Assembly (NCBI GenBank): GCA_900128585.1
Contig: LT642304.1
Span: 1-24,397, forward strand
From: Stramenopiles sp. TOSAG23-3
Taxonomy: Eukaryota > Sar
Length of the DNA: 24,397 nt
Reading direction: 5' to 3'
The position numbers and the translations under genes are program-made. Positions 175 through 16,187 of the stretch are shown one piece after another. The notes beneath the pieces are model-generated. The model saw only the letters and a list, made by a program, of their open reading frames with translations, did no database searches and was not told where the DNA came from. The stretch's first letter is position 1; each line of letters opens with the position of its first letter.

Positions 175-2490
175 TCAATAAGGTGTGAGAGGTTTGCCCA
201 AGTGCCCTTTTTTGTGTTTTGGCAAAGCTGCAGCGTCCCTGTGATCCTCGTGTGACACAACTTTCGATGACGGGCAACATAGGATGTGTAGAGCCCCTTC
301 GCATTTTCCAGCCACTGTATCAACGGTGCAAGTACTTTCATATGTGTCAATACAAACTCCACTGCCAGATTTACAGCGAGTTCCCTGGGCATTCTTAACT
401 TTTTCGGCGACGACTTTACCCAACGCTTTAACAGCATTCAAATTGGTGTGAATCATGGCACCTTTCCAATGCCCAAAACTTTTCCCATCCCCTAACATAG
501 TAGCTATTTTCTTTACATTGTCTTTTACCCCCGGGATATCCCACGGTTTCTCAATAAATATCTGCTTCCCAGACCCGGTGTACTTACTGCCTTGGGGGGC
601 GACGTATCCTTCGTAAAGCTTCGTTCCTGCGGGGATTTCGACTTGGTAAACGGAATCGATACTACTCCATTCCGATTTCACAGCAGCGTTTCGCCGCACT
701 TCAAAACGGGTTTTTGGTGGAGTTCTAGTCCAATACTGACCGAGGGCTCTATCTTTTGGCCCAGCTCGATAAAGCGTGATAGGTTCTTTCAATTCAACTA
801 CATTATATTGCCCATCTTTAAACGAATTGGCGTTATTACGGGCAGACTGGATTTCTTTTTGGTACTCTGCGTCGGGAATCTTCCCTTTTTTTGCCTTAGC
901 ATTGTCTAAAATCGGGTTTCGTCCAAGTTTCCCGCTTTCCGCGGCATCGCACGCAAAGATCCCCTTGTTTAACATTTTCTCCGCTTCTACTTTATCTGTT
1001 ATGACTGGCGTTTTGTGCTTACCTACTTTACAACTTTTACACCACTTGCGCATAACCCTCGGTTTAATTCTCGGTTTCCATGGAGTCAACAAGTTTTTCG
1101 GAGGCTTTTTTAGGACTAGCTTTTTTACCATGTTACCTATTTGCTTACGAACTTTAGCGTTTTTTGCCACCTTGACCGCTTGTTTCACCACAGTAATATC
1201 ATGAACCATATTCGTATTGAATTCTATAGCGCCTCTCTTGCCCTTCATAAATTGAAACGTATCCGCAACGGCCCCCAAGATAAGGATTTCCCCGATGCAA
1301 CCAACAATAGAAAATGAATGGAAAGCGACTTGATTTTCGCACTTGGTTTTGCACTTGTCTTGCTTTTTCAACTCAAGATTCATTTGGAGCTTTGAGTACG
1401 CGCGATGCAAGTAGTTCATAGAAAAGTACAACCCAACAATAGCTCCCACCCATTTGATAATCAAAGGCACTATGACCCAGCCAGCTGTTATCATTAACAT
1501 ATTGAGTTTCAATGCTGTCAAAATTACGCCGAGCGTAATAGCGATCTGTTGTGCTGCTGGGCACTTGACCAGGCCAACAATCATGTTCCGAAAGAAATTA
1601 AACAGTGCTTGCAGTGAACTTCTGATATGGGCTAAAACTTCATTTCTTGCGGCTTTAGAGAACAACAGAATTTTCGCATTGCTTTTAATGGCGTGAAGTA
1701 ATTCTTTAAAGGAATGGATTACATCTTTAATCCCATCACGAAAATCACTTTTGAACGCCAAGCAGTGTTTGTTATTTTTCCAAGGGGTCCTGATATCAGT
1801 AAACATCCCGCCTAGGAATCCATCCACGAACCCCAAAAGGGCCTCCAAGGGGGACGATTTAGAGGCTTTGAAAATGCTGACAATGCTGGCCTCATTGTCC
1901 AGAGCTCCAGCAAGCGGGTTATCGAAGGTGATGTTTACGACGCACTCGCAATTATTAATTCTGTCGGTATTGCACTGACACAGGCCTTTGCACGGGTTCG
2001 TCTTCGAGCTATTACACTCGTTGTTAGTATCGCATGTGTCTAACAAGGAGACGGTCTTTTCACACTCCCCCGACGCAAGATTTTTTCCTTTGGTTTCAGA
2101 TGTCAGAATGCCACCGACCCCATGCATTTCCAGCAAACCGATAACGTTTTGCAACGGTTGTACCGACTTGTGGAGAATATTTGATATTTCCCTTTTATAT
2201 TTCGTCATCTCCTTTGGGGATGCGTCCTGGTTGACTGGGGACAACTCCTTTAGTTCCATAAGAACTGGGCTATTTTTGGAGCTTAGGCTTTCCTTCAAAC
2301 TATTGTGTATCTCGATGATTTGCTCTGGGGTTAAATTGTCCATTCCACCTCCAAACGCATGGGATTCTAAGTACCGTGGAGTATTGACCGCTTCATCTAC
2401 TTTTCTCTTCAGGGCGATGGCCTCGCTGGATACAATCAAGTAAAGGAAAAAAATACCCAAATGGTAGGAACGGAACTTAGGCGTTACCAT
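175..2490 (-). CDS. Secreted/membrane protein with polymorphic-toxin-like ADP-ribosyltransferase-type domain
   Basis: The protein has 771 residues. The ATG at 2488-2490 is chosen because the frame is open to about 2535 but holds no earlier ATG, and G at -3 and +4 suits initiation. Seen: a signal peptide (hydrophobic LGIFFLYLIV, likely cleavage near residue 24); a Cys-rich patch at 143-183 with eight Cys; hydrophobic stretches at about 312-358 and 390-411 (possible membrane segments); a Lys-rich linker at about 436-495; a compact domain at about 560-655 with LYRAG (R575), YWTRTPP (586-592), PAGTKLYEG (620-628) and QIFIE (643-647); and a tail at 706-739 with Cys at 706, 713, 721, 730, 738 and 739. 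The 560-655 block resembles the C-terminal NAD-using, ART-type toxin tips of bacterial polymorphic toxins, recalled from family knowledge; R575, T588/T590 and Q643/E647 are candidate active-site positions. The tail resembles a six-Cys module of secreted fungal and protist wall enzymes. No immunity-like gene is adjacent. Activity and target are unknown. The gene call is firm; the domain call is moderate. Confidence 0.8.
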   Translation of the reverse strand: MVTPKFRSYHLGIFFLYLIVSSEAIALKRKVDEAVNTPRYLESHAFGGGMDNLTPEQIIEIHNSLKESLSSKNSPVLMELKELSPVNQDASPKEMTKYKREISNILHKSVQPLQNVIGLLEMHGVGGILTSETKGKNLASGECEKTVSLLDTCDTNNECNSSKTNPCKGLCQCNTDRINNCECVVNITFDNPLAGALDNEASIVSIFKASKSSPLEALLGFVDGFLGGMFTDIRTPWKNNKHCLAFKSDFRDGIKDVIHSFKELLHAIKSNAKILLFSKAARNEVLAHIRSSLQALFNFFRNMIVGLVKCPAAQQIAITLGVILTALKLNMLMITAGWVIVPLIIKWVGAIVGLYFSMNYLHRAYSKLQMNLELKKQDKCKTKCENQVAFHSFSIVGCIGEILILGAVADTFQFMKGKRGAIEFNTNMVHDITVVKQAVKVAKNAKVRKQIGNMVKKLVLKKPPKNLLTPWKPRIKPRVMRKWCKSCKVGKHKTPVITDKVEAEKMLNKGIFACDAAESGKLGRNPILDNAKAKKGKIPDAEYQKEIQSARNNANSFKDGQYNVVELKEPITLYRAGPKDRALGQYWTRTPPKTRFEVRRNAAVKSEWSSIDSVYQVEIPAGTKLYEGYVAPQGSKYTGSGKQIFIEKPWDIPGVKDNVKKIATMLGDGKSFGHWKGAMIHTNLNAVKALGKVVAEKVKNAQGTRCKSGSGVCIDTYESTCTVDTVAGKCEGALHILCCPSSKVVSHEDHRDAAALPKHKKGHLGKPLTPY

Positions 2491-4787: not shown

Positions 4788-7700
4788 TCACTTATTCATC
4801 ATAGCACCTAAGCCGTATTCTATCGCGGTAACAATTTTAGTGCGCATGACTGAGTCACTACTATAACTTGGCAATTCAACCTGAAAAAAACATGTATGAA
4901 CTATCGGCAGACTGGAAGTTTTCGCGTTGGTAGTGGTCAATTTAAATTCCCATTTTTCTCTTGCGTTTCTAGAAGGCAAGCGAGAACGGCCCCACGAAAA
5001 CTTTATAAAGGCCACCCGCTGCTCATGTGACAACGTTCCCATAACTCGCCAAAATCTTTTGGCAAGCGCCGAATTTGCACTAAAACCTGGCCCCGTATAT
5101 CTTGTGTGTGCCTTCCAAAAATCGATGTCAATATCGGCATCCCCACATATAGCAATTTCCAATTCACTTGGAGTAAGGTACTGTAATGCTCGAAATGGGA
5201 CAATACAAGAAAGTCCTCGCCGAATAGCATCGACTTGCACGTCAAATTCGTGAACTCGTTCTTGTGTATACAGGTGATAATATTTGGAACGATTTTTCCA
5301 CGTAACCTTCTTTTTTTCACCACCCAAAAATAAAGGTACTTTTTTACCAGAGCAGTTCAGAAATTCAAAACAAAGCGTTGATGGCAGTGCCTCAAAACTG
5401 TCTTCTGTTGGACACCGTTTTATTTTGTCGACCATACTGAATTTATTTTCATTCGGGCGGCTTTCTTCTCTGTGATCTATTGAAGCAACATCACTCATAG
5501 AGATAGAGTCGGTGATTAGAAGTTTGTACACAAGTAGTGGAAATTTAAAAGGGAAAAAACCTTCTGTTCTTAACGAAATTCCCATAATTTTCCCTACTGT
5601 TTCAAACATTTTAATGCACTCACGCGTTGTGCACTGGGGATTTGGAAGGTAGTTGGTCTGGTTCAAACCATCGTGACTCTTGCCATTTGGGGTCAAAATA
5701 AAGAGGGAGAAGGTTTTTGAAAAAAGCTGATCAACTATTGTATTCATAGCATCTCGGTAGAGACCACCGTAATCCAAGCCTTCTCCCAGCACATATTGGA
5801 CTTCAAATAGTGCTTGGACCCCTCGCTCGTTCTTTGTCTTCAGCTTAGATCTTAATTTAAACACACTTACAGCATGTAGCTGTGAGTGCAATTGTATAAA
5901 CAAATTTTTACTTTTGTGTGGGTTCGACAGGCCCAATCGTTCAGATTTGTCAGAGTCCAATTGATCAAGGCATACTTTTAATCCACTTCCTTGTTCATGA
6001 CCCCACGTCATGTCCAGAGCAGATCGTAGAAACTTCTCTTTTACCACAAAGAATATCGTATGGCTCAACTTTTGCAGTTTTGCAGAAATTGACCACGGCT
6101 GGGCCGAGTTTTTGAAATCAATCCACGCCATTAAACCGTCAATGAAATAGTTCAACAATTTTAGCAAGGCAAAACGCTGTCGAATGTTCAAATCATTCAA
6201 TGCTTGCAACTTTGTATAATTGCGCAATTCAGCACTGGAGATTTGCAACTCGCTGGGCTGACATTTCAAAGGGTTCATTCCTTTTCTCTTCATTTTGTTA
6301 TTTAGTAAATGGACCAATTGCGCGTCCATTTCTGGTGTCCATGTAGATAGTGATCGGACCATTCGCTCAACACGGGTGCGATGTGTATTGGTATTATATC
6401 TGTTGCCCCTTGAATGAAGAAATACACATAAAGCTAGGTGGTCTGGAAGTCGTGCATTCATGCTCATGCACGATACCAGATTAATTAAATCTGCGAATAT
6501 AACCTCCCGCGATGGCTTTGTGTCTCTATCCAACATTGATAAATACTCCATACACCTGTGCTCCTCTAGTTCCAAAGGAGGATCTAGTGGAATGCCTTGA
6601 TCTATCTTTGGATTCATTGGTTCTCTCTTATAGTTGCTGTTTGTGGCAAAAGATAGTTTTGTCATATTGATAGTCATGCACAACTCGACCAAAGAAGGCA
6701 AAGAGTGGGGTAAGAACAAATGGGTAGCGTGCTCTCTTTCGGCTCTGGCCATAACCGCTTCGGACACACCGTCAAAAATTTCAAGATTTGGGCGCTCATC
6801 AAAAAGCCATGGGCATTGACACAATTGTGTAAGCAGCACTACAATGCGATCCTTATATGGTGCACTAGGTGTTTTCAAGTACTCTGTCAAATTTCCCACT
6901 AATTCCCCTTCGTGAATTTTTGCAGAAATAGCGTCGTCAAGGCCCATTAAAAATGCCATTAACCAGAGTGCCCAATTTAGACTAGGGATATTGGTCACTT
7001 GATCTTCATTTATCCACATTCCCCACCCTCGGACAGCGGATGCTTCAAACTTAAACCCTTTGTATCGGAAAGAATCATTTCGTGATATTGCTTTTTCATC
7101 CATGTAAAAAGAAGAAAATTTGTAGAAAACCCTTTTGGATTCGATAATGAACGATCTTGGCGCGTTCCTAATATTGAACTTTTTGATAGGCACCCGGCAA
7201 CTTTTTTCAGTAAAAAAAGTGAGTTCGACTTGCGGATGCTGCCAAATCTCATCAGTGTACTCTTTATCGAATTCAATTCTAATGGCAGCAGCTCCATCAA
7301 TACTTACTTCCCCCGTATACGTGCATCTTGGCCAACATGGGTGCAATGACTCCCGGACAACCACATTCTCTTCGTCTGAATTTGAACTTAATGGTGAAGT
7401 ACATTCCCTTATGTTCCAGATGCATTCAGACACCAGACAGTCGTCCAGTGTTTGCGTCGATGAGAGCGTATCATCTAGGGCCTGTGCCGACAAAATGTCT
7501 ATGAATCGTTGTCTTAGCTTGTTTAGCGTCGATTTATTATTCATTTTTTTAGTTTTCCCCAGGCTCTCTTCCATAAATGAATCATCAGTTGCAGCAACAT
7601 ACTTCATTAAACTGACCAAATTCTTCGGACCTCCCAAATCGTCCACGGAGAAAGCTTGGTCTAGATCTAATACTGTCGACAGGATAACTTTACGAGCAAA

Positions 7701-10700
7701 CAAACTGCTTAGCGAGTCAGCAGTACTTTGTAACAGGTTCAGCACTGTAAATTTTCCAAGCATTGCCCCACCAAAGAGCTGGACAGGCCTTTTTAATCTG
7801 TCAACGGGGTATACACGTGTGGTTTTTACACCAGTAAACTGGTCAAGCATTTCCAACTTAACAGACTCCAACTCTTTGTATCCTCCTCGCAACTTATTTT
7901 TCTTGGTAACTACATCAACCACGACCCCTAGTCGTCCCGATACAAGCTTTTCATGACCAATGCTGTCGCTCACAATTAACATCATCCCCTTCCAAACAGG
8001 AGTGCATATGTGCTCCAGTTTAACTTGATCAGACGTCGTCGAATTATCATCAATCGAACTTTCATTTGTTGACAACGATTCCATCACTTTAGTAGCAATG
8101 CTCTTTGAACCTTTCGCCCAGTTCTCTTCACTTGACTCCAAAACTAAGGGCTCCGCTTCATCATTAATGGACGACAGCACTACTGCGTCTCCTTCGGGAA
8201 TTGCCGTATTCTCCGATGGCAACGAAGTGTAGTTCGATCCCAAGTAATACCCAAGCCCCTCATTCCCAGTCTTAAATTCGTAACCGGGCCACGCGCCCTC
8301 AAACCTATTTTTTTTTACGAACGGTGGTTTGGCAGAGGGAGATTTTTGTACCTTCTCTTCCTTCCTTGGCGTTGTACACAAGAGGCATTCTTTTGCTTCC
8401 AAATCTTCATTCAAAAAAGTGCACTTGTGACAAGCCCAAGATTTAGGATTATCATTGTCTTCGGGCTTATTTTCAACGCTAGCGTTGTAATAATCTAGCT
8501 TTGAGTAACGAGGCATCCCATTCATCAGTAACCAGTCGCCTGCTTTCACGGGATCGTCGCCAAAGAGTTCAAGAGCGTGATAGCACAGCTTCACTGAGGC
8601 CCCTACTTGCGAAAGCTCCGACGCACGCTCCCAGCGATTCGATATTTCATAGGACGTTTCGGTTTGCTCCAAACTTAGAGTCAACTTGACTTTTGCAGCT
8701 TCCTCCGTTTTTAGCCACTCAGAAGCCCGGTGAGAATCGTACTCGCCGTTCCTTTCCGTGAGTTTTACTGCTTTGATACAAAGTCTTAACGAGTAAACGG
8801 TTTCATTCATAGACCATACATCCACTGCCGTATCCATTACCTTACGATTCTTCGCTACGTTTTGAGAGACATTCCGGGTTGACGGCACAGCGTTATCTAT
8901 GTCTGTCCTCAGCGATAAATGTTCAACACTCTGTCGAGGCATCACGTCGCGCTGAACGTTTTCGCGGACCGGCGAAGGGTGATCCTTTGCTTCCCTCGGA
9001 TTACCAAGGGAAACTTTAGATTCTCCTTTCAGTAACATCGAGCTTCCCTCTTTAGACATTACTTCATAACCCCATTCTTGTAACAATCTGAACCTTTGCG
9101 ATAGCCGTTCGGGAGTAACAAAAGTAGATAAATCCAATGGTTGTAGAGCAACTGCAAACATCTCACTCAAAATTTTCGTGTCTCGAGCAACAATAGCAGA
9201 TGGGCCGTGCCCCAAAAGAAAGGATAGAGCATTTATTGCGCACGATCGTAAATACAGCAAATGGCACTGGTTATTGATATTCTTGTTTGAAATTAAACCA
9301 TCCATTAGGGATAACCGTCGTATTTTTTTGTTTTTTATGGCTAGGTCACCCCCATCTTTTAGCTCGAAGACGCCTTCTTTTGGCAGCACGTCGAAAGTCG
9401 GTATTAGAGAATCGGCAGGTACAAGCTGGGGCGGTGCCGAGACAGACTCTTTTAAAACAATTAATGCATTTGCCATTCCTCTTGTGTACAAAATAGTACG
9501 GGCTTCGGTGTTTTCATGCCCGTTCACAATGACTTTGCCTCCAATTCTTAGCATATCACTGATTCCACCCATAACACCGAGTGCAACAGCTGCGTAGCCG
9601 GCCAATGTCGATTTTTCAACATCTTCATAGGTAGAGCCAACAGAAAGCACACCGTCAGCTGAAAACCTGCTCAAAATATGATATACAAAATCACGAACAG
9701 TGTCAGTCCATTTTCCCCAATTTGTCATCTCTTTAAGTAACGACAGACATTCACACGATAGCCGGGCTAATACGTACCCGCTTCCAGCTCCAGTTGACCA
9801 GGCTTCTCTGATTCCTTTAAAAATGGAGTCAAAAATACTGTGAGTACAGGTCAGACCACTCCCGTGACTAATTATTGAGGCTGAACGCCATACCAAAAAT
9901 GACACAAAGGAGTTTCCATCGAATTTGTCAGTGGGCATGCCCATCTCCATAGCACCAGGCTGTAGTCTATTTCCAGCTTGTCCGAACGCTTTGTTCATAT
10001 CAAGGGGATCAATGCAATGTAAAATATTTTTTAAAATTCCAAGCGTAAGACCAATTATTCGAGGAGACCCAGCAAACAGTAACTGGCACATTGCAGTTAA
10101 AACCTCCATTTTTGAAAGGTATATTTTAATATGTTTCGCTCGAACAACTGACGTATAAAATAGAAGATGAGAGTAAACATACGATTCTGCTTCCATGGCT
10201 TCAACAAATTCGCACTCTTTGCAATCTTTACGAGTGAAAATGTCCACTGAGATCAAGAACTCACTTTCCAGAATATCAAAAATTTCTTTCTGCAAATCAA
10301 TAGAATCGTTGATAGCCGACAGAGAAAATATCTTAGAAGACATTCTACGCGATTTGCTGACAATGATTTCATCTGAGGGTGCTTCGGTGTTTGAGAACTG
10401 ATCCATGTTACTATCTATTTGGGAATGCTCGGAGTCTCTGACTCCACCAACTAAAAGAGTGGCTAAAAACCGAAAGAAAGCCCAGGCTCCTCGACGCAGT
10501 TGTCTCATTTCATGACCGGTGCCTTGCAGAACGTAATCAGAAAAGCCTGTCCGAAGAGATGCGTTTATTTCACCTTGTTTCATCATTTCAACGCGTCGAG
10601 TTGCTTGCCTTCTTCTGTACATAGACTGGACCATAATGGCAGCCTTTGTTGCTTCCGTTTTTTTTAATCGCAAGTGATCTTCCCATATCGATTCCATAGC

Positions 10701-13700
10701 TTCCCTCAAAGATCGATCGTATGCTTCAAGCACAGATGAGATAGTATGATGAGAAACTGCTTCTGACAAGGATCCCAAAAGGTTGCTACTTTCCCAAAAT
10801 TGAGGGTTCAAGTATTCTCTGGGCGTCTCTCTGATTTTGCAAATTACTTCCCTTATCGTCAGGTAACCACTTTGTAATGCTTGTCGCACTATGTGTGGAG
10901 GCCACGGTTTCCAATCGTTCAACTCCACTGCAGTTTTTGTGCTGTAGCTCTTTTCAGGATTCCATGATGTAGAATGTCGTCCAAACCACGCTTCTGACAT
11001 TCTGTTTCTAGTAACAACCGAAAATGTGTTGCGAAGATGGTGCAGCAGACCTGACGATAGCAACATTTTGTGATCTCGGGACTGGTAATCCAAACACAAT
11101 GTATCCAACACAATTTGGCTTAAAGCTGGGTTTCTTGAGTAACCATCATTGGTTTGCTCTTTATAAACGTTAACAATCAAAGAGAACAAAAAATCAAACG
11201 TTTTCTTAAGATCTCCAATAGCACGAGTCGAGCACCCGTCTACGTTCTTCATGTAGTGATGCTTGCGCTTGATGGTCATGGACAAATATTCAATTTGAGA
11301 GCTCGGGGTCGCTATGTCTGCCGAGACGGACTGAGAATCGGTACGAAAAACTCCTGCTAATGATCTCCGCAAAGGAAGTAGGCAATCTACCACGGCTGAT
11401 GAAATGTTAATGTTACCAATTAAGTCAGCGAAATAATTTAATCCCTCGACTCGCTGCAACACACGGGCCGTGCGAATGTTGATAAGGAGTCTGACGAGCG
11501 TTGGGGCGGCTATGGCACCGTGCTGAGCATAGTTACTAACAGCTAGGCATGCAATTTGCAGAGGACTTTTCTGCTCGTTTGCTTTACCTTGTTCATCACT
11601 GGCAATATCCTCATCAGAAACCACTCCCATCGATGTATTCGCCAGCCCTAAAGTCTGAGCAACGTTGTTTGCGTAAAGATTACCTGCAAGTCCGGGGGTT
11701 AGATCATCGTTAAAATTTGCCGAATTAAGACTAAGGATAAAGCTGCATCGTTCCTCGACATGCCGACATAACTCCTCGAAAGACCGCGGGGCGCGAACCA
11801 TTGCTCGAGTTGAGTAATTGTCACTTCCTACCGTTTCAGCAACATGGCTGCCTGATAACTTTCGTTCTGCGCTGAACGAGCGAGTCTCTTCCTTTGTCTC
11901 TACGGCTCCAATACCCTCGTCAAAAATATCGCTCAAATTTGACCAAGTACCGCTCAAATTTGAACTCCGTCTCTGCTTAAAGGCACTTTCGCTTTTTTCG
12001 TCTGTAAACACAGGCGCATTTTCTTCCTCGGCTATAATTTGAGATCGCTCGCTCCAATCTATAGATTTCTGGGAACGCAACCAACCACGAAATATCCTAA
12101 CATTGGCAGCAATTTCGGAAATATTCTTTTTAAAATCCTTTGAATTTTCGTCCGACTCGAACACTTTTCCATTCAAATGATCTCTCAAAAGGGCCCACAA
12201 CCCCGATTGCCACAAAATTGCGGCCAGATACTTACGTTCCATCTTGGGAAAGGCACCCAATCGCTTTAAAAGAACTTTGTTCTTATATATCATACGGTCC
12301 ATTCCACCTTTTTTGTCCTGAAAATTTACCCATTCTAGAATCTTATTTGTGGAAGAAACTTTCAGCAAAAACTTGCCCGGCTTTTCTAACATGGTAGTTA
12401 CAGAATCTTCCAACATGGTATCTGCAGGCTTGTCCCATTGCGTTACATTTGTAGCTTTATTCCAGAAGTAGGAACGCTGAGAATCTGGGTCAATAAGTTC
12501 TTCCCAGGCAGAGTCGCCGGTCTCTTTGCTCGATGTTGACACCAAGTCAAGTTTAGGAACCGAAAAGAAAAGTTTTAAGGGTCTCGATGCTTCTCGAATC
12601 GCACGATAGACATCGTTCAAAGACAAAAAGTTGGAGTGTACGCTGACAGACGAAGAAATTTTTGTGAGTACATGCCCAGGATGTACTAGACCGCATTTCT
12701 CTAAAAAAGAGCGCTCGTTGAGCTCACTGCCAACGCGCCGAAAACCTCTCACGACAGCAACAAAATCCTCTCCCTGCGATTCCATAATGGACTCTTCGAA
12801 CATAATTCCAAGCTCACCAGTATGATGAACTTCCACGCTAAATTGTTCGTTCAGTTCATGTTCCTTCAAGCCAGCAGAAAATAGCGGCGAGGCCAACCAG
12901 GGATCCATCTCTAACTCTAAAGTTGTGTTTGGAACTCCAGACACGAGCGAGGATGCAAATAGGGAAGTACAACTAACAATTGTCTTTTCAAGGTCTAGCA
13001 AATAGGGAAGACAGGCAGTCCCACCGCTGTATCCGGCACCACGGACAGAAATTTCACTACCTTTATCTTCCATTGTGACGACCAGATGTATTGGATTTTC
13101 AGTATTGGTTACTCTCTCAACTTTCGTGCTGCCTTCAAACCCATTGCCCAAAAAAACACCATTGGCAAAATAGCTCAATGTGCCTGATTCCGTGTCTAGT
13201 TTCATACAGATAATATCACCTGCTTTCCCTTCATAATCCAATTGTCCTACCTTCTGCCCACCATACCACAGCGAGCCGTCTTTGACGTTCACGGCCCAAC
13301 AAGACTGCTGGTCTTCTACCCCAGCGTAAGAAACAGCTGATATGTAATGACACACGCCAATGTATATGCTGGCGGAGTTGATGTTGAATTCCCAGGCATG
13401 GAGGCCATGACTTACACCACTGGACGAGAAGACAGTCACGACCCCGCTCGTGTTGGACGTTACCGTTTGTTGATCATTAGTGGTTAAAATATCGTGATCA
13501 TCCTCGATGACATCTAAAAACTGTTTTGCCGTATTGTCTACGGGACGACTTTTCTCGACCTTAAACAATTTTGTTGAGAACCTTGGGGGGCTGGTACCGT
13601 TAGCAAACTTCTCTGTCGGATTATGTTCTTTGTCTATATCTGAGCTATTGTTCGTATAAAATGTTTTCTCCGCGTTCTTGATATGAGGTAAAGACACGTT

Positions 13701-16187
13701 TAAAGCATCGAGCTGCTTAATTGTGTCGACAAGGTGAGGGACAAGCATTTTGGATAACCAAAGTAAATGAAAATTTAAGCATGCTTCCATAACAAAGGAA
13801 GGGAGAAGCTGCCGAATTATTGATTTTTGTAATGCAGCATCAAGGTCAACGCGCGACAGCTTTGCGCTCTTCGCAGTCTTTAAAATGACCTGGGCATGTT
13901 GACATAACAACTCCCCGTATATAATCGTGACTCGCGATGGAGCAGTGTACCTTGAGGATTCACGGCTGAACAAGGCCATGAGGTGCCTTTGATAATCCAT
14001 TAGGAGTTTCAACGCGCTATCTTGCAAATCTGTGCTCGGTTTCAGTGAGGCGCCTGTCAACAAGTCTACGGTTCCATCCACACTAAAATTGAACAGTGTG
14101 GCTAACGGACCAGCGTGCTTTCTGGCATCTTCTTCGGTACAAAATTTATTTGCCTGGGGGAGGCTGTTGACAATGCCACCCTTAAATCTCTTCAACATGT
14201 TCGCAATAAGCTGCTGTTTCCCAGGGCTAAGCTGGTCCAATTCTAGCTCTTCGTTATCCTTGAGTACTTGCGTCAATACGCTAACGCGCTTTGCTTCCGA
14301 GGAGTAAATACACTCGAATCCTTCCGAGAACGCACCGGCAGCTTTCAATTGAATACTTTTCGGCAGAGACGCGTCCGCGGTAATCCTTGAGAGAGTGTTC
14401 GCCAAATCCTGTAAACAGTTTGCTTCGAAACCAACGCTTGCTGGATTTACCATAGAAATTCTAATGCGTCGAAAAGATGCGTTCAACAGGGTCAAGATTT
14501 GCTCTTTAAAGGTATCCTGTTTAAATTTATCCTGAAAGCCACCGCTCGCTAAAGCCGGGTCTATCAAAAATTGGTTGCACAAATAAAACGTCTCAACACA
14601 ACCTTCAATGCAAAATGGTACCTCCAAGTCCAGGTCAGCAACTTGGAGATCATTTTCTAAAGGCCAGATATCAAAAAGCTCTGTAGTTTCACAGAGCATC
14701 GCCATGAGGTATTCAATCACTGTACATTCACTTTTATCCCCCTGTATCTCTGCTATCCTCAACTTTATTTCCGACCGTGGCTCCCGCCCCTTTGCACGTA
14801 CTTCATTCAGAACTGTAGAAGAGACCGTATCCCAGTGCCTGCGTATGTCCTTAAAAAAGCTGCTCCACGCACCATCTTCTTCGGTAACGGGTGTTTGGCT
14901 GTACAAAGGGTTTGTGCCGGACTTTATGCACGCTTTCACAAGGTGCAACACGGTGCAGAAAGAACCGCCTAATCTTACCAGCATCATCAGCGCTTTGATA
15001 GCATCTGAATTCGACTCTGTATTGCGGTTTGTGGAGCAGATTTCGCTAAGCCAAGTGTGAATGTCGCTGATTATGCGACGTCGGTTACTCGTGCAAGGGC
15101 GATCCGTACTGCCCCATAGTTGAAAATTGCAAATCCCAACTGGGAGATAATGCGTTTTTCGGTTTGGGTCAGCAGTATGCTTACATTCCAATTTCACATG
15201 CGTCAACATGTTCCCCTCCAAGGAAACGACAGTTTTTCTAGTTATGTACGGCTTTTGAAGTGTGTAGACGCGAAACCAAGACGTCCCATCCGAAGAAACC
15301 TGGACCGATATACTTTCAGGTAGCTCTGACGTAAAAAAGAACTCCATGCTTTTTATAGCAACCGGCTCGCTCCCTTTTACACGAACCACAACTTCGCTTT
15401 TGACCCGGTTGCGCGCGGGGACAAAAACCATTCCTGGCAATTCCTTTTGCGAAGCTTTCCATTTTCCAGGTACACATAAATGCAATGGCAAATTTTCGGA
15501 AATTTTCCCCGGCGCGGAATAAGGCAACACAATCGTTGAACGGTCGATGCCCGAAGACAGGGCCTGAACCGTGACCAGTTTTCGTTCACTGTCCATCGGA
15601 GGACTCCATTCAGAAAACAGAGAGAGCGCCCCTTTTTCCTCTGAGAATTTTTTCAACCAATTGCAAACGCTGCGCAGAGGCTTACGGTCGCAGTTACCCC
15701 CAGCGTGAATCTTCGTAAGGGAAGAAAGCATCCGCAAATTAAACTCAGAGAGTGGTTCAAGTGCAATTGTTGGCGCCGCTTTTCGGCGTGCTTTGTAACG
15801 TTTTGATTGATGTTGCCGTTCATCTTCAGTCAGATTCTGGAAATACTGAAGAATTTTTACACGCTTCAAAACGGTCCCTAAAAAGCTAGGAAGATTTCCT
15901 GAGCTGCACGTCAAGTCTTTCACGCACCTATTCAAGGCAGAATTTAGGCTTTCGTCTTCTTCTACCCCTGCCGCGACACACAGGCGCTCCTGAGATATTG
16001 CATTCTCCATAATAAGCCTCTCGTCCATAGAAATATCCACGTACGGCAGCTGAAACTTGATACGTTTGATCTCTGTTTCATGTTTTCTATAAATAAAGTC
16101 AACGACGTGCGCATCAAAAAGTCCAGAAGCATAGCTCTCCTTTGCAGACGCAAGCTCACCAACAGAAGACGAGCCGCTTTCTGCCAT
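4788..16187 (-). CDS. Giant multidomain HECT E3 ubiquitin ligase
   Basis: The protein has 3,799 residues in a single uninterrupted frame. The ATG at 16185-16187 has A at -3 and G at +4. Domains seen, with approximate residues: discoidin/F5-8C-like beta domain 240-357; SPRY 925-1050 (HAWEF, IYIGVC, SLWYGG); PDZ-like 1112-1210 (GELGIMFEE); WW 1222-1256 (WEELIDPDSQRSYFWN with closing W and P); IQ motif 1845-1868; UBA-like helices 2470-2500 and 2525-2560 (ALELFGDDPVKAGDWLL); RanBP2-type zinc finger C2586-x2-C2589-x11-C2601-x2-C2604; a galactose-binding/CUB-like block 2935-3030 (RESLHPC...); and C-terminal HECT about 3440-3799. The catalytic Cys is C3766 in LPIVHTCFFQ, followed by the conserved LPSY. 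It should take ubiquitin from E2 as a thioester and pass it to substrates bound by the N-terminal modules. The size is in the range of HERC1, HERC2, HUWE1 and HECTD4. No RCC1 repeats were noticed, so it is not a typical HERC; closest named orthologue uncertain. The IQ motif suggests calmodulin or a light chain as partner. Confidence 0.95.
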   Translation of the reverse strand: MAESGSSSVGELASAKESYASGLFDAHVVDFIYRKHETEIKRIKFQLPYVDISMDERLIMENAISQERLCVAAGVEEDESLNSALNRCVKDLTCSSGNLPSFLGTVLKRVKILQYFQNLTEDERQHQSKRYKARRKAAPTIALEPLSEFNLRMLSSLTKIHAGGNCDRKPLRSVCNWLKKFSEEKGALSLFSEWSPPMDSERKLVTVQALSSGIDRSTIVLPYSAPGKISENLPLHLCVPGKWKASQKELPGMVFVPARNRVKSEVVVRVKGSEPVAIKSMEFFFTSELPESISVQVSSDGTSWFRVYTLQKPYITRKTVVSLEGNMLTHVKLECKHTADPNRKTHYLPVGICNFQLWGSTDRPCTSNRRRIISDIHTWLSEICSTNRNTESNSDAIKALMMLVRLGGSFCTVLHLVKACIKSGTNPLYSQTPVTEEDGAWSSFFKDIRRHWDTVSSTVLNEVRAKGREPRSEIKLRIAEIQGDKSECTVIEYLMAMLCETTELFDIWPLENDLQVADLDLEVPFCIEGCVETFYLCNQFLIDPALASGGFQDKFKQDTFKEQILTLLNASFRRIRISMVNPASVGFEANCLQDLANTLSRITADASLPKSIQLKAAGAFSEGFECIYSSEAKRVSVLTQVLKDNEELELDQLSPGKQQLIANMLKRFKGGIVNSLPQANKFCTEEDARKHAGPLATLFNFSVDGTVDLLTGASLKPSTDLQDSALKLLMDYQRHLMALFSRESSRYTAPSRVTIIYGELLCQHAQVILKTAKSAKLSRVDLDAALQKSIIRQLLPSFVMEACLNFHLLWLSKMLVPHLVDTIKQLDALNVSLPHIKNAEKTFYTNNSSDIDKEHNPTEKFANGTSPPRFSTKLFKVEKSRPVDNTAKQFLDVIEDDHDILTTNDQQTVTSNTSGVVTVFSSSGVSHGLHAWEFNINSASIYIGVCHYISAVSYAGVEDQQSCWAVNVKDGSLWYGGQKVGQLDYEGKAGDIICMKLDTESGTLSYFANGVFLGNGFEGSTKVERVTNTENPIHLVVTMEDKGSEISVRGAGYSGGTACLPYLLDLEKTIVSCTSLFASSLVSGVPNTTLELEMDPWLASPLFSAGLKEHELNEQFSVEVHHTGELGIMFEESIMESQGEDFVAVVRGFRRVGSELNERSFLEKCGLVHPGHVLTKISSSVSVHSNFLSLNDVYRAIREASRPLKLFFSVPKLDLVSTSSKETGDSAWEELIDPDSQRSYFWNKATNVTQWDKPADTMLEDSVTTMLEKPGKFLLKVSSTNKILEWVNFQDKKGGMDRMIYKNKVLLKRLGAFPKMERKYLAAILWQSGLWALLRDHLNGKVFESDENSKDFKKNISEIAANVRIFRGWLRSQKSIDWSERSQIIAEEENAPVFTDEKSESAFKQRRSSNLSGTWSNLSDIFDEGIGAVETKEETRSFSAERKLSGSHVAETVGSDNYSTRAMVRAPRSFEELCRHVEERCSFILSLNSANFNDDLTPGLAGNLYANNVAQTLGLANTSMGVVSDEDIASDEQGKANEQKSPLQIACLAVSNYAQHGAIAAPTLVRLLINIRTARVLQRVEGLNYFADLIGNINISSAVVDCLLPLRRSLAGVFRTDSQSVSADIATPSSQIEYLSMTIKRKHHYMKNVDGCSTRAIGDLKKTFDFLFSLIVNVYKEQTNDGYSRNPALSQIVLDTLCLDYQSRDHKMLLSSGLLHHLRNTFSVVTRNRMSEAWFGRHSTSWNPEKSYSTKTAVELNDWKPWPPHIVRQALQSGYLTIREVICKIRETPREYLNPQFWESSNLLGSLSEAVSHHTISSVLEAYDRSLREAMESIWEDHLRLKKTEATKAAIMVQSMYRRRQATRRVEMMKQGEINASLRTGFSDYVLQGTGHEMRQLRRGAWAFFRFLATLLVGGVRDSEHSQIDSNMDQFSNTEAPSDEIIVSKSRRMSSKIFSLSAINDSIDLQKEIFDILESEFLISVDIFTRKDCKECEFVEAMEAESYVYSHLLFYTSVVRAKHIKIYLSKMEVLTAMCQLLFAGSPRIIGLTLGILKNILHCIDPLDMNKAFGQAGNRLQPGAMEMGMPTDKFDGNSFVSFLVWRSASIISHGSGLTCTHSIFDSIFKGIREAWSTGAGSGYVLARLSCECLSLLKEMTNWGKWTDTVRDFVYHILSRFSADGVLSVGSTYEDVEKSTLAGYAAVALGVMGGISDMLRIGGKVIVNGHENTEARTILYTRGMANALIVLKESVSAPPQLVPADSLIPTFDVLPKEGVFELKDGGDLAIKNKKIRRLSLMDGLISNKNINNQCHLLYLRSCAINALSFLLGHGPSAIVARDTKILSEMFAVALQPLDLSTFVTPERLSQRFRLLQEWGYEVMSKEGSSMLLKGESKVSLGNPREAKDHPSPVRENVQRDVMPRQSVEHLSLRTDIDNAVPSTRNVSQNVAKNRKVMDTAVDVWSMNETVYSLRLCIKAVKLTERNGEYDSHRASEWLKTEEAAKVKLTLSLEQTETSYEISNRWERASELSQVGASVKLCYHALELFGDDPVKAGDWLLMNGMPRYSKLDYYNASVENKPEDNDNPKSWACHKCTFLNEDLEAKECLLCTTPRKEEKVQKSPSAKPPFVKKNRFEGAWPGYEFKTGNEGLGYYLGSNYTSLPSENTAIPEGDAVVLSSINDEAEPLVLESSEENWAKGSKSIATKVMESLSTNESSIDDNSTTSDQVKLEHICTPVWKGMMLIVSDSIGHEKLVSGRLGVVVDVVTKKNKLRGGYKELESVKLEMLDQFTGVKTTRVYPVDRLKRPVQLFGGAMLGKFTVLNLLQSTADSLSSLFARKVILSTVLDLDQAFSVDDLGGPKNLVSLMKYVAATDDSFMEESLGKTKKMNNKSTLNKLRQRFIDILSAQALDDTLSSTQTLDDCLVSECIWNIRECTSPLSSNSDEENVVVRESLHPCWPRCTYTGEVSIDGAAAIRIEFDKEYTDEIWQHPQVELTFFTEKSCRVPIKKFNIRNAPRSFIIESKRVFYKFSSFYMDEKAISRNDSFRYKGFKFEASAVRGWGMWINEDQVTNIPSLNWALWLMAFLMGLDDAISAKIHEGELVGNLTEYLKTPSAPYKDRIVVLLTQLCQCPWLFDERPNLEIFDGVSEAVMARAEREHATHLFLPHSLPSLVELCMTINMTKLSFATNSNYKREPMNPKIDQGIPLDPPLELEEHRCMEYLSMLDRDTKPSREVIFADLINLVSCMSMNARLPDHLALCVFLHSRGNRYNTNTHRTRVERMVRSLSTWTPEMDAQLVHLLNNKMKRKGMNPLKCQPSELQISSAELRNYTKLQALNDLNIRQRFALLKLLNYFIDGLMAWIDFKNSAQPWSISAKLQKLSHTIFFVVKEKFLRSALDMTWGHEQGSGLKVCLDQLDSDKSERLGLSNPHKSKNLFIQLHSQLHAVSVFKLRSKLKTKNERGVQALFEVQYVLGEGLDYGGLYRDAMNTIVDQLFSKTFSLFILTPNGKSHDGLNQTNYLPNPQCTTRECIKMFETVGKIMGISLRTEGFFPFKFPLLVYKLLITDSISMSDVASIDHREESRPNENKFSMVDKIKRCPTEDSFEALPSTLCFEFLNCSGKKVPLFLGGEKKKVTWKNRSKYYHLYTQERVHEFDVQVDAIRRGLSCIVPFRALQYLTPSELEIAICGDADIDIDFWKAHTRYTGPGFSANSALAKRFWRVMGTLSHEQRVAFIKFSWGRSRLPSRNAREKWEFKLTTTNAKTSSLPIVHTCFFQVELPSYSSDSVMRTKIVTAIEYGLGAMMNK

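Follow-up and report, generated by a model that had tools for sequence, protein, structure and literature searches.

A bacterial toxin tip with a predicted NAD(P) glycohydrolase fold in a secretory-type protein of a stramenopile

Introduction

According to a 2012 survey, toxin domains have repeatedly been transferred to eukaryotes (PMC3482391). Among the enzymes most relevant here are NAD(P) glycohydrolases (NADases). AfNADase is reported to work on the surface of the fungus, and the same paper discusses why it needs no immunity factor; mutating R129, F137 or Q194 abolishes its activity, and the nicotinamide part is contacted by R148 (PMC7955114). A single strictly conserved glutamine is reported to be common to TNT-like NADases (PMC10539506). 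The present analysis concerns a 771-residue protein, P0001, encoded in the 24,397 nucleotides of contig LT642304.1 (C563; the window) of the Stramenopiles sp. TOSAG23-3 assembly (12.9 Mb, 660 contigs). Its C-terminal domain, or tip, is homologous to the tips of delivered bacterial toxins and, judging from a predicted model, is most likely a NAD(P) glycohydrolase rather than an ADP-ribosyltransferase.

Homology of the tip to delivered bacterial toxins

The 771-residue protein named in a preliminary description of this DNA has an intact gene: the frame begins with ATG and contains zero internal stops (Table 1), and a near-copy, P0002, lies on a separate contig of 12,673 bases. The stretch singled out in that description, positions 535-820, corresponds approximately to P0001 residues 557-652, and its motifs are found where they had been placed (R575, YWTRT at 586-590, PAGTKLYEG at 620-628 and QIFIE at 643-647).

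The suggested likeness to bacterial toxin tips is borne out, and at the sequence level it is far beyond chance. An Enterococcus faecalis protein (L007:3969-5369), whose LXG match is listed under P0031, shares 45% identity over about 100 residues with the window tip (expectation value, E, 3e-20). A plasmid search returned seven records at E <= 0.1, including the Sphingomonas paucimobilis Rhs protein WP_053003313.1 (43%, E 8e-21), and in a plasmid record the Paraburkholderia tip protein adjoins a ShlB-type secretion gene. When P0001 residues 500-690 served as the query, 23 proteins among 328 candidates matched at E <= 1: P0002; the four proteins P0003-P0006 (54-69% identity), which share the carrier of P0001; and 18 others (39-41%, E about 1e-9), which are taken to be bacterial because the four of them that were read were so. 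The E. faecalis tip as query matched 280 proteins among 351 candidates at E <= 0.01, and among the best 120 of these are several whose names include LXG or pre-toxin. In one bacterial phylum, 7 out of 398 genomes gave a match to a tip profile, with the starting genome among the seven. Domain-length homology and the invariant residues described below place the window tip in this LXG/Rhs-borne family.

One protein, P0041, carries a Barstar domain (11-86) ahead of a NADase-type tip (223-351). The E. faecalis locus (L007) is OR846588.1 39833-50159, a record named Enterococcus phage Efs 1-1-1, where chromosomal-looking frames read as peptidase, RodZ-like and PgsA-like flank the LXG toxin gene; the sequence is probably that of the host. 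A phage origin by way of this record was dropped because the frames flanking the tip look chromosomal. In IMG/VR, 11 stretches fit a pattern, and no relative was found among those 11.

Predicted fold and conserved residues

Structure prediction yielded the ADP-ribosyltransferase-like (ART-like) NAD-binding fold that the preliminary description had anticipated. Its proposal of an NAD-using ART-like domain holds to that extent, but the best fold matches are NADases and not ADP-ribosyltransferases. All of ranks 1-11 for the predicted model are NADases, and its ART-like palm fold is closest to these enzymes, as in the Tne/TNT-like group.

The count of residue conservation started from 159 tips, each 85 residues or longer, drawn from proteins and 14 loci; removal of near-copies left 33, and 31 were counted after L018 and L030 were set aside. 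Loci L028, L029, L035 and L036 and the matches from Rahnella, Sinorhizobium and P. caribensis stood outside the tip set. Among the 22 positions counted, F557, R575, A603, W608, P620, G628, Q633 and Q643 are invariant in all 31 tips, and T590 is threonine in 12. Two of the residues proposed as functionally important, R575 and Q643, are thus invariant, while the proposed acid at 647 is glutamate in only 3 of 31. Along the sequence, R575, the two aromatic residues at 586-587, R599 and Q643 follow the order seen in AfNADase, as matched by motif rather than by superposition; Q643 was paired with Q194 and Q1452 in the same way, without superposition.

These results bear on whether the tip might instead be a true ADP-ribosyltransferase that modifies protein or nucleic acid. 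An enzyme of the R-S-E type was dropped since 647 is not a conserved acid and the order of fold matches favors NADases, and a transferase of any such kind is considered improbable.

Searches for a named family gave little. Profile searching found homologues that are C-terminal tips of delivered bacterial toxins, as had been proposed, but no named curated family: neither Pfam nor NCBIfam names one in the P0001 tip, and the one weak NCBIfam match lies at 293-371. Six proteins were compared with NCBIfam, and three had chance-level matches only, far below the cut-off. PADLOC reported nothing for four proteins, and two tip profiles gave only chance matches to solved structures by sequence. The Pfam TNT family (PF14021) was absent from P0001 at E up to 10 and from ten relatives at E up to 5; a TNT search of the organism's own genome also found no match, but its controls gave no match either. 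Within the tip, PHROGs matched only the unnamed phage family phrog_24213 (E 4e-5 for P0001). When ten relatives, eight of them tip-bearing, were compared with Pfam, DUF2255 fell within the tip in two, below the cut-off (P0116, E 0.0011; P0132, E 0.0021), which might reflect a distant relation to the tip.

Origin of the tip and the small genes behind bacterial tips

In a tree of the 31 tips, the six from eukaryote-type carriers group together (support 93/93, and 92% over 200 bootstrap replicates), and this group sits among bacterial tips when the tree is midpoint-rooted. The root is assumed, the fork joining this group to the Sphingomonas and Bacillota tips is open (80/82), as are some inner forks, and the row of a paralogue on contig C565 is long. 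The simplest reading of the sequence tree is a single transfer from a bacterium to a eukaryote, with the direction taken from the midpoint root.

An assembly chimera or bacterial contamination might produce a similar picture, given that the assembly is fragmented and that one 18S pattern found no match in it. This explanation is hardly credible. The same kind of carrier bears the tip in four other sequences, a tip-bearing paralogue lies on another contig, and the remaining genes of the window are eukaryotic in type by their domain-library matches.

In all four relatives compared, no other region is better conserved than the tip. Between P0001 and P0003-P0006, identity is 65-73% in the tip and 58-65% in the cysteine module (equal to the tip in P0005), compared with 33-46% in the signal-peptide region, 34-37% in the N-terminal region, 39-44% in the central part, 37-40% in the linker and 17-29% in the tail. 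Captured enzymes can lose activity, and a catalytically dead tip retained as a binding module would accord with the C565 copy (L003 853-3483), which has insertions in the tip and lacks the PAGT motif. However, that copy retains R575, T588, R599, W608, Q633 and Q643, the four invariant residues among these are kept in both copies of the organism's own genome, and the regional conservation also argues against decay. A dead tip is thus very improbable.

Genes behind the tip were read at seven bacterial loci. At five (E. faecalis, Listeria, Sphingomonas, Rhodoferax and Chimaeribacter), a gene of 92-102 amino acids lies directly behind the tip, and E. faecalis has two small downstream genes, of 97 and 99. 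The small proteins of E. faecalis, Listeria and Sphingomonas are mutually related (E 1e-5 to 2e-28), and the Rhodoferax protein is related to that of Chimaeribacter (4e-13); these values were obtained with a set of only seven sequences, and a large database would make them weaker. The next gene in Paraburkholderia had no match among the small-gene set, and Latilactobacillus has only a 55-residue frame behind its tip. From the relatedness across loci, it appears that the tip travelled with its small gene between LXG and Rhs carriers in the style of a toxin and its immunity protein, which the small protein would presumably be. A search of the stramenopile genome with the E. faecalis small protein, the only one searched, gave a best E of 0.92. 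No known delivery domain (LXG, PAAR, Rhs and others) was found in P0001, whose sole Pfam match at E up to 10 is EB (7.7), and the protein is classed here as a captured domain rather than as a toxin-immunity system.

A proposed role outside the cytosol

On balance, P0001 is probably a secretory eukaryotic carrier with a NAD(P)-glycohydrolase domain that was captured once from bacterial polymorphic toxins and is used outside the cytosol against microbes. The likeliest site of the protein is the cell surface, a food vacuole or a secretory granule, where its NADase would split NAD(P)+ into nicotinamide and ADP-ribose and would harm or digest bacteria or other microbes. As NAD in the cell's own cytosol would stay out of the enzyme's reach, no immunity protein would be needed. 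It is quite likely that the tip is enzymatically active, and a location outside the cytosol is proposed with the same good confidence. Use against microbes, as a weapon or an aid to digestion, is a more tentative proposal that falls a little short of an even chance. Both the small-gene pattern and the fold matches to fungal enzymes proved weaker than they first looked, which slightly lowers the confidence placed in the full statement.

The antimicrobial use is nonetheless the first choice over a nutritional or signalling ecto-enzyme, which would break down NAD extracellularly or in vacuoles for nicotinamide or ADP-ribose without serving as a weapon. The fold matches and residue conservation fit such an enzyme equally well, as does the surface location of AfNADase, for which the lack of need for an immunity factor is discussed (PMC7955114). 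That no counterpart of the E. faecalis immunity-like protein was found in the genome likewise fits an enzyme kept away from the cytosol. On the other side, the source family was built as a weapon, and the central hydrophobic region exceeds what a simple anchor needs. Neither point is decisive, and the ecto-enzyme, though rather unlikely, is regarded as the strongest competing explanation.

If the tip of this presumed microbe-directed protein is active, protist reuse of bacterial weapons against bacteria becomes directly testable. The case ties bacterial warfare to eukaryotic cell biology, with an LXG/Rhs-borne toxin domain well conserved in a secretory-type eukaryotic protein and its relatives. 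In addition, it draws attention to a family of bacterial tips, probably NADases, for which no named Pfam or NCBIfam model was found in this analysis.

The carrier protein and its surroundings

A signal-peptide-like start and the cysteine-rich modules of the preliminary description are both recognizable in P0001. Hydropathy marks an N-terminal hydrophobic segment at residues 9-27, and cysteine clusters are found at 143-183 and 706-739. ShK modules, too, are cysteine-rich. The stretch at 315-358 is possibly a membrane hairpin. The full-length structure model is of low confidence and too poor for use.

Table 1. Positions of the P0001 gene and its parts in the window
Feature	Position	Strand	Basis
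Gene of the 771-residue protein P0001, stop codon included	175..2490	-	Intact frame; P0002 99% identical
Signal-peptide-like N-terminus (putative), residues 1-25	2416..2490	-	Hydropathy; family-wide pattern ...FFLLLLVSxEAI in alignment
N-terminal carrier region, probably helical, residues 28-136	2083..2409	-	Alignment; low-confidence model
Cysteine-rich module, residues 137-185	1936..2082	-	Alignment, hydropathy; EB-like only by a Pfam hit short of significance, E 7.7
Long hydrophobic stretch, residues 315-358, kept in carrier family	1417..1548	-	Hydropathy, alignment
Second hydrophobic segment, residues 387-414	1249..1332	-	Hydropathy
NADase-type toxin tip, residues 543-662	505..864	-	Homologues, boundaries, structure model, fold matches
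R575, R in 31/31 tips; proposed counterpart of AfNADase R129	766..768	-	Alignment; correspondence by motif order only (PMC7955114)
Y586-W587-T588; 586 is W/Y/F in 31/31, T588 is T in 27/31 and S in 3/31	727..735	-	Alignment
R599, R in 28/31 tips; possible counterpart of AfNADase R148	694..696	-	Alignment; motif order only (PMC7955114)
Q633, Q in 31/31 tips	592..594	-	Alignment
Q643, Q in 31/31 tips; proposed counterpart of TNT-like NADase glutamine	562..564	-	Alignment; motif order only (PMC7955114, PMC10539506)
Cysteine-rich tail, residues 706-739; also in tip-less paralogue on contig C125	274..375	-	Sequence comparison

The organism's own genome holds at least four members of the carrier family: the window protein, the C565 paralogue, which lacks the cysteine tail, the C125 paralogue and a C471 paralogue with a different end. 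The carrier relatives P0027-P0030 have no tip; P0027 ends in a cysteine tail, and P0028-P0030 have another, cysteine-containing C-terminal end. For the two-module tail of the relatives, just a weak match turned up in the organism's genome (E 0.023), and the cysteine tail had zero matches to solved structures at E up to 1. A similar cysteine-tail pattern occurs in an otherwise dissimilar protein on contig C490 (L005/L022; 40% over P0001 residues 699-745). Given the varied ends of own-genome and metagenomic relatives, a protist that feeds on microbes may possess a modular effector system of its own for use against them. The carrier would then be a eukaryotic counterpart of polymorphic toxins, with a conserved secretory front, a membrane-inserting region and exchangeable C-terminal ends, a proposal that is considered unlikely at present.

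Elsewhere in the window, a 3799-residue protein contains HECT and WW domains, with SPRY falling just below its cut-off; the protein's frame (4788-16187) is uninterrupted, so that 11.4 kb needs no intron. Another protein has an IBR match just below the cut-off, and a third is of CH/IQ type with an ASPM-type ASH match below the cut-off. The organism is apparently single-celled, and a non-photosynthetic way of life is weakly suggested because a search of the genome found no chlorophyll-binding protein.

Comparison with known systems

The NADases Tne2 (6B12), Tse6 (4ZV0, 4ZV4) and Rhs1-CT (6XTD) of type VI secretion systems are only 11-18% identical to the P0001 tip; two tip profiles gave no match to them beyond chance level, and their carriers differ. 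The NADases on the surface of Aspergillus and Neurospora belong to the TNT-domain group; Pfam's TNT model (PF14021) does not match P0001, and the carrier of these enzymes differs from that of P0001, which has hydrophobic segments. TelB of Streptococcus intermedius is reported to be an LXG toxin with a NADase tip resembling TNT (PMC5555719). Its tested residues are R626 and H661, and the columns counted in the P0001 family contain no invariant histidine, a comparison made without alignment.

The LXG/Rhs toxin tips of E. faecalis and S. paucimobilis are homologous to the window tip and share its invariant residues. In those proteins the tip is joined to bacterial delivery domains and a small gene follows, whereas P0001 begins with a signal-peptide-like segment and contains hydrophobic stretches and cysteine modules; the E. 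faecalis-type small gene has no counterpart in the genome of P0001. Searches of the literature, which could not name the tip itself, brought up no account of it in any protist. According to the Tne5 report, eukaryotes can carry a NADase toxin domain next to small modules, as in P0001; the modelled site of Tne5, compared without alignment, differs in having Lys1392 and Glu1482 (PMC13285283). P0001 would add to the repeated transfers of toxin domains to eukaryotes that the 2012 survey had described (PMC3482391).
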